Program-made: the position numbers and the translations under genes
Part shown: one piece after another, positions 36,639 to 55,725 of the stretch
Position numbering within the stretch: position 1 is the stretch's first letter
Layout: each line of letters starts with the position of its first letter
DNA from: Methanocorpusculum sp.
GTDB taxonomy: Archaea; Halobacteriota; Methanomicrobia; Methanomicrobiales; Methanocorpusculaceae
Length of the DNA stretch: 64,000 bases
Direction of reading: 5' to 3'
NCBI GenBank assembly: GCA_017408885.1
Contig: JAFQTT010000003.1
Span: 1-64,000, forward strand
Notes under the pieces: model-generated
Databases searched by the model: none
Seen by the model: only the letters and a program-made list of their open reading frames with translations
Told to the model about the DNA's origin: nothing

Positions 36639-37904
36639 TTATATTTTCTTTTCCAAAGCCTGCTCGACGATTTTTATCGCACATAAATCCCCGCACATCG
36701 AACAGGTTTCGCATTCTCCGTCTCTTTCATGGATTGCTTTTGCATGCTCGCCAAACATCGCTGCGGCATACTGTCTTTCCCAGTCAAGAGCATGACGGGC
36801 TTCTCCCATCTCGATTTCGCAGTCGAGTGCTGATTCACGTTTTCTTGCAAGGTCTCCGACGTGAGCTGCAATTTTTGCGGTTCTTGTTCCCTCTATGATA
36901 TCGTTTTTATTCGGGAGGGCTAAGTGTTCAGAGGGAGACACCATGCAGATGAAGTCAGCTCCGGCAGAGGCGGCAGCAGCCCCGCCTATGGCTCCTGTTA
37001 TGTGGTCATAACCTGGGGCTATATCTGTTACAAGCGGACCTAACAGATAGAGCGGAGCAAAACCTGTTATCTCTTTTATCATCTTCACGTTGTAGGAAAT
37101 CTCTGAATAGTCCATATGCCCGGGGCCTTCAATCATTCGGAAAACACCTTTATTAAAAGCCCTTCTGGCAAGTTTTCCCAAGGTCACGTACTCCTGGGAT
37201 TTGGCAAGTTTTACTGAATCCACATATGCTCCAGGACGCATGCCGTCACCTAAAGAGATTGGGATGTCATACTCGTCTAAAATTTCTAAGAGGTAGTCAT
37301 ATTCTTTGTAGAGAGGATTCTCTTCGCCTGTTGCAAGCATCATCGCTGTGTGGAATGAACCGCCGCGTGAAACAACTCCCATAGTCCGCGGATCAAGCTT
37401 TAGGGCATCAAGTACCTCGAGATTTACTCCGCAGTGAAGCGTCATGAAGTCAACGCCTTCCTTTGCCTGGTCGCGAATAGTGTTGAAGAGTGTGTCAGCA
37501 TCTAAATCGACTACATTGCCGGCACGGCGCACAGCTTCATAAATCGGAACAGTTCCAACCGGAATGTCAAGCTTTAGAATCTCGCGGCGCATGGATACAA
37601 TATCCCCTCCGGTCGATAAATCCATTATCGCGTCCGCTCCGTTTTCGATTGCAGCTTTTGCCTTCTCAATCTCCATTTCAGGAGAACATGTAATGCCGGA
37701 TGTTCCGACATTCACATTTACCTTTACACTGACATCCTCGCCAATCGCGCACGGAGTGTAAGGTCTTTTGTCATTTCTCAAAACAATGCATCGGCCGGAT
37801 AGAATATTTCGAGCAAGTTTTTCTGTTGAGACATTCTCATTTTTCGAAACAACATCGAGAGAGGAGTAATCCCCGCTCATACATTCTCTAAGTATCGAAT
37901 GCAT
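36639..37904 (-). CDS. thiC: Phosphomethylpyrimidine synthase ThiC
   Basis: A 421-residue ThiC. Family motifs are VNVNVGTSGITCSPEMEIEK, DAIMDLSTGGD, VDFMTLHCGV, and the C-terminal Fe-S motif CETCSMCGDLC (CX2CX4C) that binds SAM. It converts aminoimidazole ribotide into HMP phosphate for thiamine. I choose the ATG at 37904; ATG at 37880 is also possible, and a longer reading to 37982 would overlap the permease gene. It lies 56 nt after that gene with a T-run between, so it is probably transcribed alone. Confidence 0.95.
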   Translation of the reverse strand: MHSILRECMSGDYSSLDVVSKNENVSTEKLARNILSGRCIVLRNDKRPYTPCAIGEDVSVKVNVNVGTSGITCSPEMEIEKAKAAIENGADAIMDLSTGGDIVSMRREILKLDIPVGTVPIYEAVRRAGNVVDLDADTLFNTIRDQAKEGVDFMTLHCGVNLEVLDALKLDPRTMGVVSRGGSFHTAMMLATGEENPLYKEYDYLLEILDEYDIPISLGDGMRPGAYVDSVKLAKSQEYVTLGKLARRAFNKGVFRMIEGPGHMDYSEISYNVKMIKEITGFAPLYLLGPLVTDIAPGYDHITGAIGGAAAASAGADFICMVSPSEHLALPNKNDIIEGTRTAKIAAHVGDLARKRESALDCEIEMGEARHALDWERQYAAAMFGEHAKAIHERDGECETCSMCGDLCAIKIVEQALEKKI

Positions 37905-37959
37905 AACTGATGAGATTAATTGTATCTTTTCGATAAAATACTTGGCGGTAAAAAATAAT

Positions 37960-39216
37960 TTAGTCGGTTGACATAGCTTCAACCGGGTTTAAGTTTGCGG
38001 CCTTCCATGCAGGATAGAGACCGGATGCCAGACAGACTACAAGTCCTACGACAATTCCAAGCGGGATGTATGACAGAACCGAGACGGAGAACATCGCGGT
38101 AAATTCAAGTCCCATAATCATCATGAAGACTGGAGAGACAATCAATGACAGAGCAACTCCGAAGACAGAGCCGATAAGTCCGATTAATCCTGCTTCATAG
38201 AGGAACATCTGAAGAATCTGACTGCGGTATGTTCCAATACTTCTGAGAATTCCAACCTCACGGGTTCTTTCTTTGACGCTCATGAGCATCACATTTGTGA
38301 TTGCAACAGCGGCTACCAGAAGAGAGATTCCGGATATGACGGTGGTGAAGATAGAACTCATGTTCATAATCTCGTCAAAGATGTCCATCAGTTCATAGGA
38401 GTTTAAGATGGAGACGGTGTTGTCTGAATCTTTGTCCTCTTTTCCGTTCATCTTCTTGTCGACTGCTTCGTCAATTAAGGCGAGGTCTTCTGGATCGTAT
38501 GCTTTGATGATGATTTTGTCATAGAGACCATAGTTGTTTCCGACAACTGAGCTGTACCACTCGGTTGTTCCAAGAATTGAGCTGTCTGTTGCAATTCCAA
38601 AGGTCAGAAGGCCTGTATTCTCCATGATTCCGACAACACGGCAGGTAATTTCCTGACCGCTTACGCCGAGGAATGAGATGCGGCTTCCAAGACGCAGTTC
38701 GTTGTCTTCTGCGAACTGTTCTCCAACGATTACGTTGGTGCCTCCCTTAGGCCATGTGCCGGATACAAGAGTTACAAGACCTGACATGTCATTTGAGTCA
38801 AGGCCGTAAACCGATGCAGTCAGCAGGTCTTTGCCGACAGTAACCGGTTTGTATGTGTTGTAGTATGGAACCAGTTCATACTCTTTGGTAACGGATTTTG
38901 TCGCAGACTCAATATTTCGGACATCTTTTTCCGAGAAACCAACTGCTGTGTGTCCGCCGACGACCTTTTCGCCCAAGGGTGATAAGGTCAGTGTGTCTGC
39001 GGTGTCGGTAATCATGTTGTCCATTTCGTCTGTAAATCCGGCACTCACCATTCCCATAGCGCAGATAGCAAAGACACCAATTACGATGCCTATCATGGAG
39101 AGGATGGTTCTGAATTTATTCAGTTTGAGATTGCGCAGAGCTAGAGACACAATCATTGGCGAATAGATTTTCTGCCAAAGCGTTTTTTCGTCACTCTTCG
39201 CCAACAATCTCACCAT
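37960..39216 (-). CDS. MacB-type ABC transporter permease
   Basis: A 418-residue FtsX/MacB-family permease. One membrane helix near the N-terminus (TILSMIGIVIGVFAICAMG) is followed by a large extracytoplasmic domain of about 230 residues, then three C-terminal helices with the conserved SVKERTREVGILRSIGTYRS coupling loop. With the ATPase it forms an exporter or envelope-lipoprotein-type machine. The ATG at 39216 overlaps the ATPase stop by 26 nt; a shorter start at 39156 (MIVSLALRN) is possible. Confidence 0.9.
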   Translation of the reverse strand: MVRLLAKSDEKTLWQKIYSPMIVSLALRNLKLNKFRTILSMIGIVIGVFAICAMGMVSAGFTDEMDNMITDTADTLTLSPLGEKVVGGHTAVGFSEKDVRNIESATKSVTKEYELVPYYNTYKPVTVGKDLLTASVYGLDSNDMSGLVTLVSGTWPKGGTNVIVGEQFAEDNELRLGSRISFLGVSGQEITCRVVGIMENTGLLTFGIATDSSILGTTEWYSSVVGNNYGLYDKIIIKAYDPEDLALIDEAVDKKMNGKEDKDSDNTVSILNSYELMDIFDEIMNMSSIFTTVISGISLLVAAVAITNVMLMSVKERTREVGILRSIGTYRSQILQMFLYEAGLIGLIGSVFGVALSLIVSPVFMMIMGLEFTAMFSVSVLSYIPLGIVVGLVVCLASGLYPAWKAANLNPVEAMSTD

Positions 39217-54882: not shown

Positions 54883-55725
54883 TCAGATAGAGATACGCAC
54901 CATTCTCTTCTCGCGATATTCAGGAAGCTGGTCTGAGACATAAATCACGCATCCGCTTTCGCGAACTGCATCTTCTGCTTTCTCGCGTGCAAGGTTTGGG
55001 CGGTTGTAGTTTTCCGACAAATGGGCGAGAGCAACACAGCCTACATGGTCTTTTAGAACCGAGAGAGTTTTTGACGAGGCCTCGTTTGATAAGTGACCGT
55101 CTTCTCTGATTCTGTCCTTTAAGTAGCGCGGGTAAACCCGTTTTACTGCACAGTCGCCTCCGCAGGAAGCACCGCAAAGCCTGCACATTTTGCATGCAGG
55201 GAAGCGGTCGGTCTTCATGGCCTCTTCTGAGTAATTGCTCTCGAGAACAACAGCATCACAGGAACAAAGCGCTGTCATCATAGAGTCTGAGACAGTATGC
55301 GTATCAAGACACACTCCAATTCTTGAATCTCCATCCTCGATAATGAATCCTGTAGGTTCTGCCGCATCGTGATATGTTCTAAAAGAGGTAACAGTCAGTG
55401 TACCGAAATCAACACCGATTCTGTCATGCATGAGAATCTTATCAGCAGACTGGGAAAGCACACCACTTTTCTGCATCGCAGAAAGTGTCCCGCCTGATGC
55501 CGCAGCCGGAATCTTTGCAGCCTTTAGAAATGCCTTTGCCGAGCGTACGTGGTCTGCGTGTTCGTGCGTCACACAAAGAGCACGCACTGTTTCGGCAGGG
55601 ATGCGATACTCCTCAAGCGTCCGCTTCAGATATCCGATACCCGCATCTATAACTACGGCATCACTGCCGTTTCCGATGTAGATACAATTTCCTTTGCTCC
55701 CGCTTGCTAAGAGTACACAATCCAT
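54883..55725 (-). CDS. Metallo-beta-lactamase-fold protein (YycJ/WalJ-like) with Cys-rich insert
   Basis: A 280-residue MBL hydrolase of the YycJ type: LLASGSKGNCIYIG, metal motif THEHADHVRS, VVLESNYSEEAM and GHLSNEASSK, with ALAHLSENYNRP near the end. Between LESNYSEEAMKTDRFPA and the GHLSN motif is an insert with Cys178, Cys181, Cys184, Cys188 and Cys192. The first four fit CX2CX2CX3C, the spacing of ferredoxin-type [4Fe-4S] sites. The family includes nucleases; cluster binding is inference. Confidence 0.85.
   Translation of the reverse strand: MDCVLLASGSKGNCIYIGNGSDAVVIDAGIGYLKRTLEEYRIPAETVRALCVTHEHADHVRSAKAFLKAAKIPAAASGGTLSAMQKSGVLSQSADKILMHDRIGVDFGTLTVTSFRTYHDAAEPTGFIIEDGDSRIGVCLDTHTVSDSMMTALCSCDAVVLESNYSEEAMKTDRFPACKMCRLCGASCGGDCAVKRVYPRYLKDRIREDGHLSNEASSKTLSVLKDHVGCVALAHLSENYNRPNLAREKAEDAVRESGCVIYVSDQLPEYREKRMVRISI

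Follow-up and report, generated by a model that had tools for sequence, protein, structure and literature searches.

What is a tight run of cysteines doing in the middle of a metallo-beta-lactamase (MBL)-fold hydrolase, and might it hold a metal? The question is raised by a yycJ-like gene in a 64,000-nucleotide stretch of DNA from Methanocorpusculum sp., the whole of which we refer to as the window. A preliminary description had placed five cysteines, within residues 178 to 192, ahead of the GHLSN motif of a YycJ/WalJ-like protein encoded at 54883 to 55725, and coordinates, residues, and placement all proved correct. The argument below draws on the following features:

54883 to 55725, minus strand: yycJ-like gene for an MBL-fold metallo-hydrolase, an open reading frame (ORF) of 280 aa, identified by Pfam and by alignment with bacterial relatives
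55549 to 55566, minus strand: THEHADH (HxHxDH), residues 54 to 59, the active-site metal motif; H54, H56, D58, and H59 invariant in 27/27 sequences
55303 to 55305, minus strand: D141, invariant in 27/27
55231 to 55242, minus strand: ESNY, residues 162 to 165, directly N-terminal of the insert; E162 and N164 invariant in 27/27, Y165 in 25/25 sequences of the genus
55135 to 55200, minus strand: Cys-rich insert, residues 176 to 197; ESN-GHLSN spacing 48 in the genus versus 26 to 27 in others
55162 to 55194, minus strand: C178-x2-C181-x2-C184-x3-C188, four cysteines invariant in 25/25, with TGC/TGT exchange
55150 to 55152, minus strand: C192, the fifth cysteine (its place is taken by residue 189 or 193 elsewhere in the genus), from the genus alignment
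55084 to 55098, minus strand: GHLSN, residues 210 to 214, C-terminal of the insert; G210, H211, S213, and N214 invariant in 27/27
55012 to 55026, minus strand: AHLSE, residues 234 to 238, containing H235; H235 and S237 invariant in 27/27

The assignment to a YycJ/WalJ-like MBL fold was borne out by Pfam, where the ORF matches Lactamase_B_2 (6.9e-13) and Lactamase_B (1.3e-12), and by motifs conserved throughout a family alignment of 27 sequences, nine from Methanocorpusculum and 18 from bacterial YycJ-like relatives with 29 to 34% identity. No NCBIfam model scored above its cut-off, nor did any YycJ-specific model match the ORF in the Pfam and NCBIfam searches. The ten closest loci all belong to Methanocorpusculum, those spanning the gene being 65 to 95% identical. 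Residues invariant in all 27 sequences include S8, S10, G12, N13, H54, H56, D58, H59, H119, D141, E162, N164, K203, R205, G210, H211, S213, N214, H235, and N241; the MBL metal motifs (HxHxDH, H119, D141, and H235) are thus complete, as expected for the YycJ/WalJ family, with D141 presumably the bridging metal ligand by the general MBL rule. The ESN, GHLSN, and HLS..N signatures, which we take to be those of YycJ, are common to the ORF and its bacterial relatives, and in calling the ORF YycJ/WalJ we assume that these motifs and signatures mark the family. At 55231 to 55242 on the minus strand, the genus has ESNY where the other Methanomicrobiales that were read have ESNH; in the latter a cysteine follows immediately (ESNHC), and the same cysteine is present in 15/25 genus members.

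Two AlphaFold2 models, built from 27 and 18 alignment rows, reached mean pLDDT values of 89.6 and 89.7, with only 62 and 51 in block 181-190, such that the loop is uncertain in both. The closest solved folds were 1zkp, YhfI, PqqB, and RNase Z (Z 23 to 25). Overall, the structure searches returned MBL proteins generally and singled out no one family. Because a sequence search of the PDB matched no YycJ structure, the place of the insert beside the active site is given by motif order. It falls between D141 and H235 in sequence, presumably the stretch in which beta-CASP nucleases carry their extra domain, a nucleic-acid clamp. The window protein itself is no beta-CASP protein, its ESN-GHLSN stretch of only 48 residues offering no domain inserted in the MBL fold.

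Is the insert more than a chance accumulation of cysteines? We reduced 36 loci of the genus to 25 distinct sequences, leaving out one fragment of less than 230 aa (locus L011); one of the rows ends at 240 aa, at a contig end, and another lacks the first residues. The cysteines of the window protein (178, 181, 184, 188, and 192) form a CX2CX2CX3CX3C pattern between ESNY and GHLSN. Across the 25 sequences, C178, C181, C184, G185, C188, G190, and V194 are invariant, while positions 177, 179, 180, 183, 187, and 191 vary. All four fixed cysteines are among the 8/23 invariant positions in residues 176 to 198 (hypergeometric P 0.008), and the other insert positions have a mean entropy of 1.35 bits versus 0.76 for the remaining protein. 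The cysteine pattern is therefore more than chance. The codons of the four invariant cysteines alternate between TGC and TGT (18/7, 21/4, 21/4, and 20/5, in order), and dN/dS (NG86) was 0.03 to 0.10 in six of seven pairs, the seventh being saturated. Invariance, synonymous codon exchange, and low dN/dS together indicate that these four thiolates are under selection.

The fifth cysteine behaves differently. Each of the 25 sequences has exactly one further cysteine of the conserved set, and it lies at position 189 (nine sequences), 192 (nine), or 193 (seven), every position corresponding to one clade; two of the 25 have a sixth cysteine within the insert. Mapped onto a tree from which the insert had been left out, these three positions require two changes, which is the minimum. 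With a cysteine in 25/25, this means that the fifth cysteine moved at least two times and, in this sample, was never lost, as if five thiolates were needed. Free variation of the cysteines among close relatives had been named beforehand as the observation that would speak against the insert being a site at all; when this was checked, four of the five survived and the fifth shifted. Conservation of a five-cysteine insert thus stands for the four that are invariant in 25/25 and needs amending for the one whose position depends on the clade. This moving cysteine is the oddest part of our finding, and none of the readings discussed below explains it fully.

How widely is the insert distributed? 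The preliminary description had asked whether it is limited to methanogens, which turned out to be too wide: in everything examined, the insert is limited to the genus Methanocorpusculum. ESN and GHLSN are 48 residues apart in 25/25 genus sequences; they are 26 or 27 apart in 24/24 other Methanomicrobiales, eight of them from the sister genus and none with the insert, and likewise in 18/18 bacterial relatives, these 18 loci being the bacterial scope of the comparison. In keeping with this, 28 related loci divided into ten from Methanocorpusculum with the insert (one copy being split over two loci) and 18 others without. A 65-column profile of the insert region gave a full-length match in 25/232 genomes of the class, all Methanocorpusculum, and matched three more at the GHLSN end only; in a phylum sample it matched full length in 9/392, again all Methanocorpusculum, with one more end-only match.

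As to the origin of the insert, 49 viral contigs (L145-L193) encode distant relatives of the window MBL protein, and a viral structure search returned mainly phage and giant-virus MBL proteins. A motif search found both motifs in 7/49 of these relatives, and all seven have the short ESN-GHLSN spacing; a viral source was rejected as far as these seven sequences reach. In the tree, support for the genus as a single clade is 100/100; its stem measures 1.55 changes per column, and it does not group with its sister genus, although a constrained grouping of the two was not rejected (p-AU 0.179). We therefore prefer descent in place with fast change over a horizontal origin of the genus version, since the sister grouping stands unrejected and the gene order of yycJ and DNA ligase is kept in 16/25 members.

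That gene order offers a hint at function. An ATP-dependent DNA ligase gene, identified by Pfam DNA_ligase_A_N, _M, and _C, lies directly behind yycJ in those 16/25 genus members; in the 189 and 193 clades (16/16), 7 to 14 bases separate the final sense codon of yycJ from the ligase start. The clade to which the window belongs has the two genes adjacent in 0/9 cases, and in the window genome the ligase sits on another contig. Among the matches listed for other Methanomicrobiales, yycJ and ligase lie within 7 kb of each other in 77/96 genomes, and in 73/96 the ligase is found within that distance downstream of yycJ and on its strand; this set comprises 86 plus 10 genomes with both genes among the matches listed, its rows were copied by hand, and genes on two contigs were scored as a miss. 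Instances of yycJ next to or near a ligase gene across the order include L008 (5001-7486), L112, L111, L109, and L110. Conservation of the gene pair across Methanomicrobiales suggests a shared role in repair. In addition, a MutS-family domain occurs in 31/33 genomes of the family. The neighbours in the window itself encode a TPR protein, a PsiE-like protein, a type IV pilin, a pyridoxal-dependent decarboxylase, and CofC, none of which explains the insert. In locus L007 (6513-7451, minus strand), the TPR neighbour gene is found in two open frames, compared to one in the window.

Excerpts from two published studies bear on the same question: exonuclease activity of YycJ is reported for B. anthracis (PMC4801191), and a replication-arrest screen lists walJ of B. 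subtilis as a metallo-beta-lactamase/5'-3' exonuclease (PMC9836290). Together with the ligase pairing and MutS, this work leads us to favour a DNA-repair nuclease; that is, gene order and analogy with bacterial YycJ suggest that the product of archaeal yycJ is a DNA-repair exonuclease. Searches of the open-licence literature found neither functional work on this archaeal MBL protein nor a paper on the cysteine insert.

Which metal, then, might the insert hold? According to excerpts from PMC3320576, a [4Fe-4S] site takes three ligands from CXXCXXC and its fourth from an outlying cysteine, most often followed by proline. Excerpts from PMC10946529 describe 16-residue peptides of the short four-cysteine type that hold a [4Fe-4S] cluster, and some 22 residues, the length of the insert, could for this reason be enough. 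The insert has the CX2CX2CX3C spacing of ferredoxins, which is the part of the earlier label "ferredoxin-like" that holds. The remainder does not: proline after the fourth cysteine is absent in 25/25 (C188 is followed by G, C, Q, or L), the motif occurs once in the ORF with no second ferredoxin motif, Pfam gave no Fer4 match at E values up to 1, and the insert is below ferredoxin-fold size, for which reasons we rejected a ferredoxin domain. A redox-sensing or electron-transfer role, also raised earlier, found no support here, unlike a metal site. A profile of the insert retrieved insignificant PDB matches including RNA polymerase subunit D (E 0.17, the best) and PsaC (E 3.8). The cysteine spacing has 94 DNA matches in the window genome; of the first 30 by position, 28 have an open frame across the motif, with proline next in 10/28, several of these frames being short and possibly not genes. 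Literature searches on MBL proteins with [4Fe-4S] clusters or on iron-sulfur nucleases, and on the structural zinc of PhnP, found nothing relevant. Judged from its sequence, the insert is a probable metal site near the active site, for either iron-sulfur or zinc; we rank [4Fe-4S] marginally above zinc, which the preliminary description had also allowed for, and either of them well above a loop that binds no metal.

Our preferred reading, to which we give a little less than an even chance, is a predicted, genus-specific metal loop beside the active site of a probable repair nuclease. The gene would be the yycJ of Methanomicrobiales, its MBL-fold product probably trimming DNA 5'-3' in repair and handing the trimmed DNA to the ATP-dependent ligase encoded beside yycJ in many relatives. 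On the stem of Methanocorpusculum, some 22 residues would have been gained between ESNY and GHLSN, adjoining the active-site motifs, and the four fixed cysteines plus the one that moved would bind metal, with one [4Fe-4S] cluster marginally favoured over zinc. Bound metal might fold the loop as a stiff lid and so assist in placing the DNA, a structural task, with electron transfer an unlikely one. Several observations count against this account: the window's own clade has no ligase beside yycJ (9/9), the shifting fifth cysteine leaves at least one thiolate without a fixed place, both models are unsure of the loop, no proline comes after the fourth cysteine, polar residues are frequent between the cysteines, and the CxxCG step fits zinc equally well. 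The last point leads to a structural zinc loop, in which one Zn, bound by four of the five cysteines, would stabilise the segment next to the active site; this we consider plausible, if clearly short of an even chance. Four invariant cysteines suffice for Zn (a zinc-knuckle Cys4 site, by number), albeit in a loop of low confidence in both models; C181-x2-C184-Gly corresponds to what we take to be the CxxCG step of zinc knuckles, proline is missing after the fourth cysteine, and PhnP and PqqB, which carry a structural, Cys-bound zinc elsewhere in the fold, are structural relatives (Z 22.1 and 24.3). Against this, CX2CX2CX3C is very tight around one tetrahedral ion, and a fifth cysteine kept in 25/25 is superfluous for Zn(Cys)4.

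A loop with no metal site at all, serving as a thiol/disulfide or persulfide switch or in metal trafficking while mostly disordered, would agree with the low model confidence and with a moving fifth cysteine, as a reactive thiol could behave; we think it improbable, given that the 2-2-3 spacing with G185, G190, and V194 fixed in 25/25 goes beyond what a loose thiol loop needs and that disulfides are unlikely in the cytoplasm of an anaerobe. Were the protein instead a different hydrolase of the MBL fold, such as a cyclic phosphodiesterase or an RNase Z-like enzyme, the insert could shape its substrate pocket. The folds of YhfI, RNase Z, PqqB, and PhnP type all score Z 22 to 25 with no family singled out, which speaks for this reading; we nevertheless hold it to be unlikely in view of the ligase gene pairing and the motif agreement with bacterial YycJ-like proteins. 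The boldest version of the preferred reading, in which the insert, at the place of the beta-CASP clamp, made an iron-sulfur nuclease of an ancestral repair exonuclease, the migrating cysteine letting the cluster swap a ligand and the cluster state gating DNA-end processing before ligation, strikes us as improbable.

If the loop does hold metal, a probable DNA nuclease would have acquired an iron-sulfur or zinc site recently, and the insert-free enzymes of sister genera are ready controls. The case would show how a short loop becomes a metal site, and how a ligand cysteine can shift without loss of the site. The yycJ-ligase pair, in addition, gives this archaeal MBL protein a functional assignment that can be put to the test.

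How does the protein compare with known systems? In its cysteine spacing, it is like ferredoxin, PsaC, and archaeal RNA polymerase subunit D, the last of which we take to be an iron-sulfur protein, and it differs from [4Fe-4S] proteins of the CXXCXXC type in lacking the proline, a second motif, and the ferredoxin fold. The same spacing recurs within the window in an ORF that is ThiC-like by eye (36639-37982, minus strand), as a C-terminal CX2CX2CGX2C motif (36681-36713) with glycine after the third cysteine, as in the insert, and again no proline after the motif. ThiC is a [4Fe-4S] enzyme of unrelated fold and activity; the likeness is one of motif only. With PhnP and PqqB, and with RNase J and CPSF73 by structure search, the window protein has the MBL fold in common, the beta-CASP domain being confined to the latter two. 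It shares its MBL, ESN, GHLSN, and HLS..N motifs with the YycJ/WalJ exonucleases of Bacillus anthracis and B. subtilis, as judged by bacterial YycJ-like relatives, to which it adds a net 21 to 22 residues with cysteines between ESNY and GHLSN and, in many archaeal relatives, a nearby DNA ligase gene. The yycJ-like proteins of other Methanomicrobiales are encoded at the same locus near the ATP-dependent ligase; in contrast to them, Methanocorpusculum has both the insert and a long stem.
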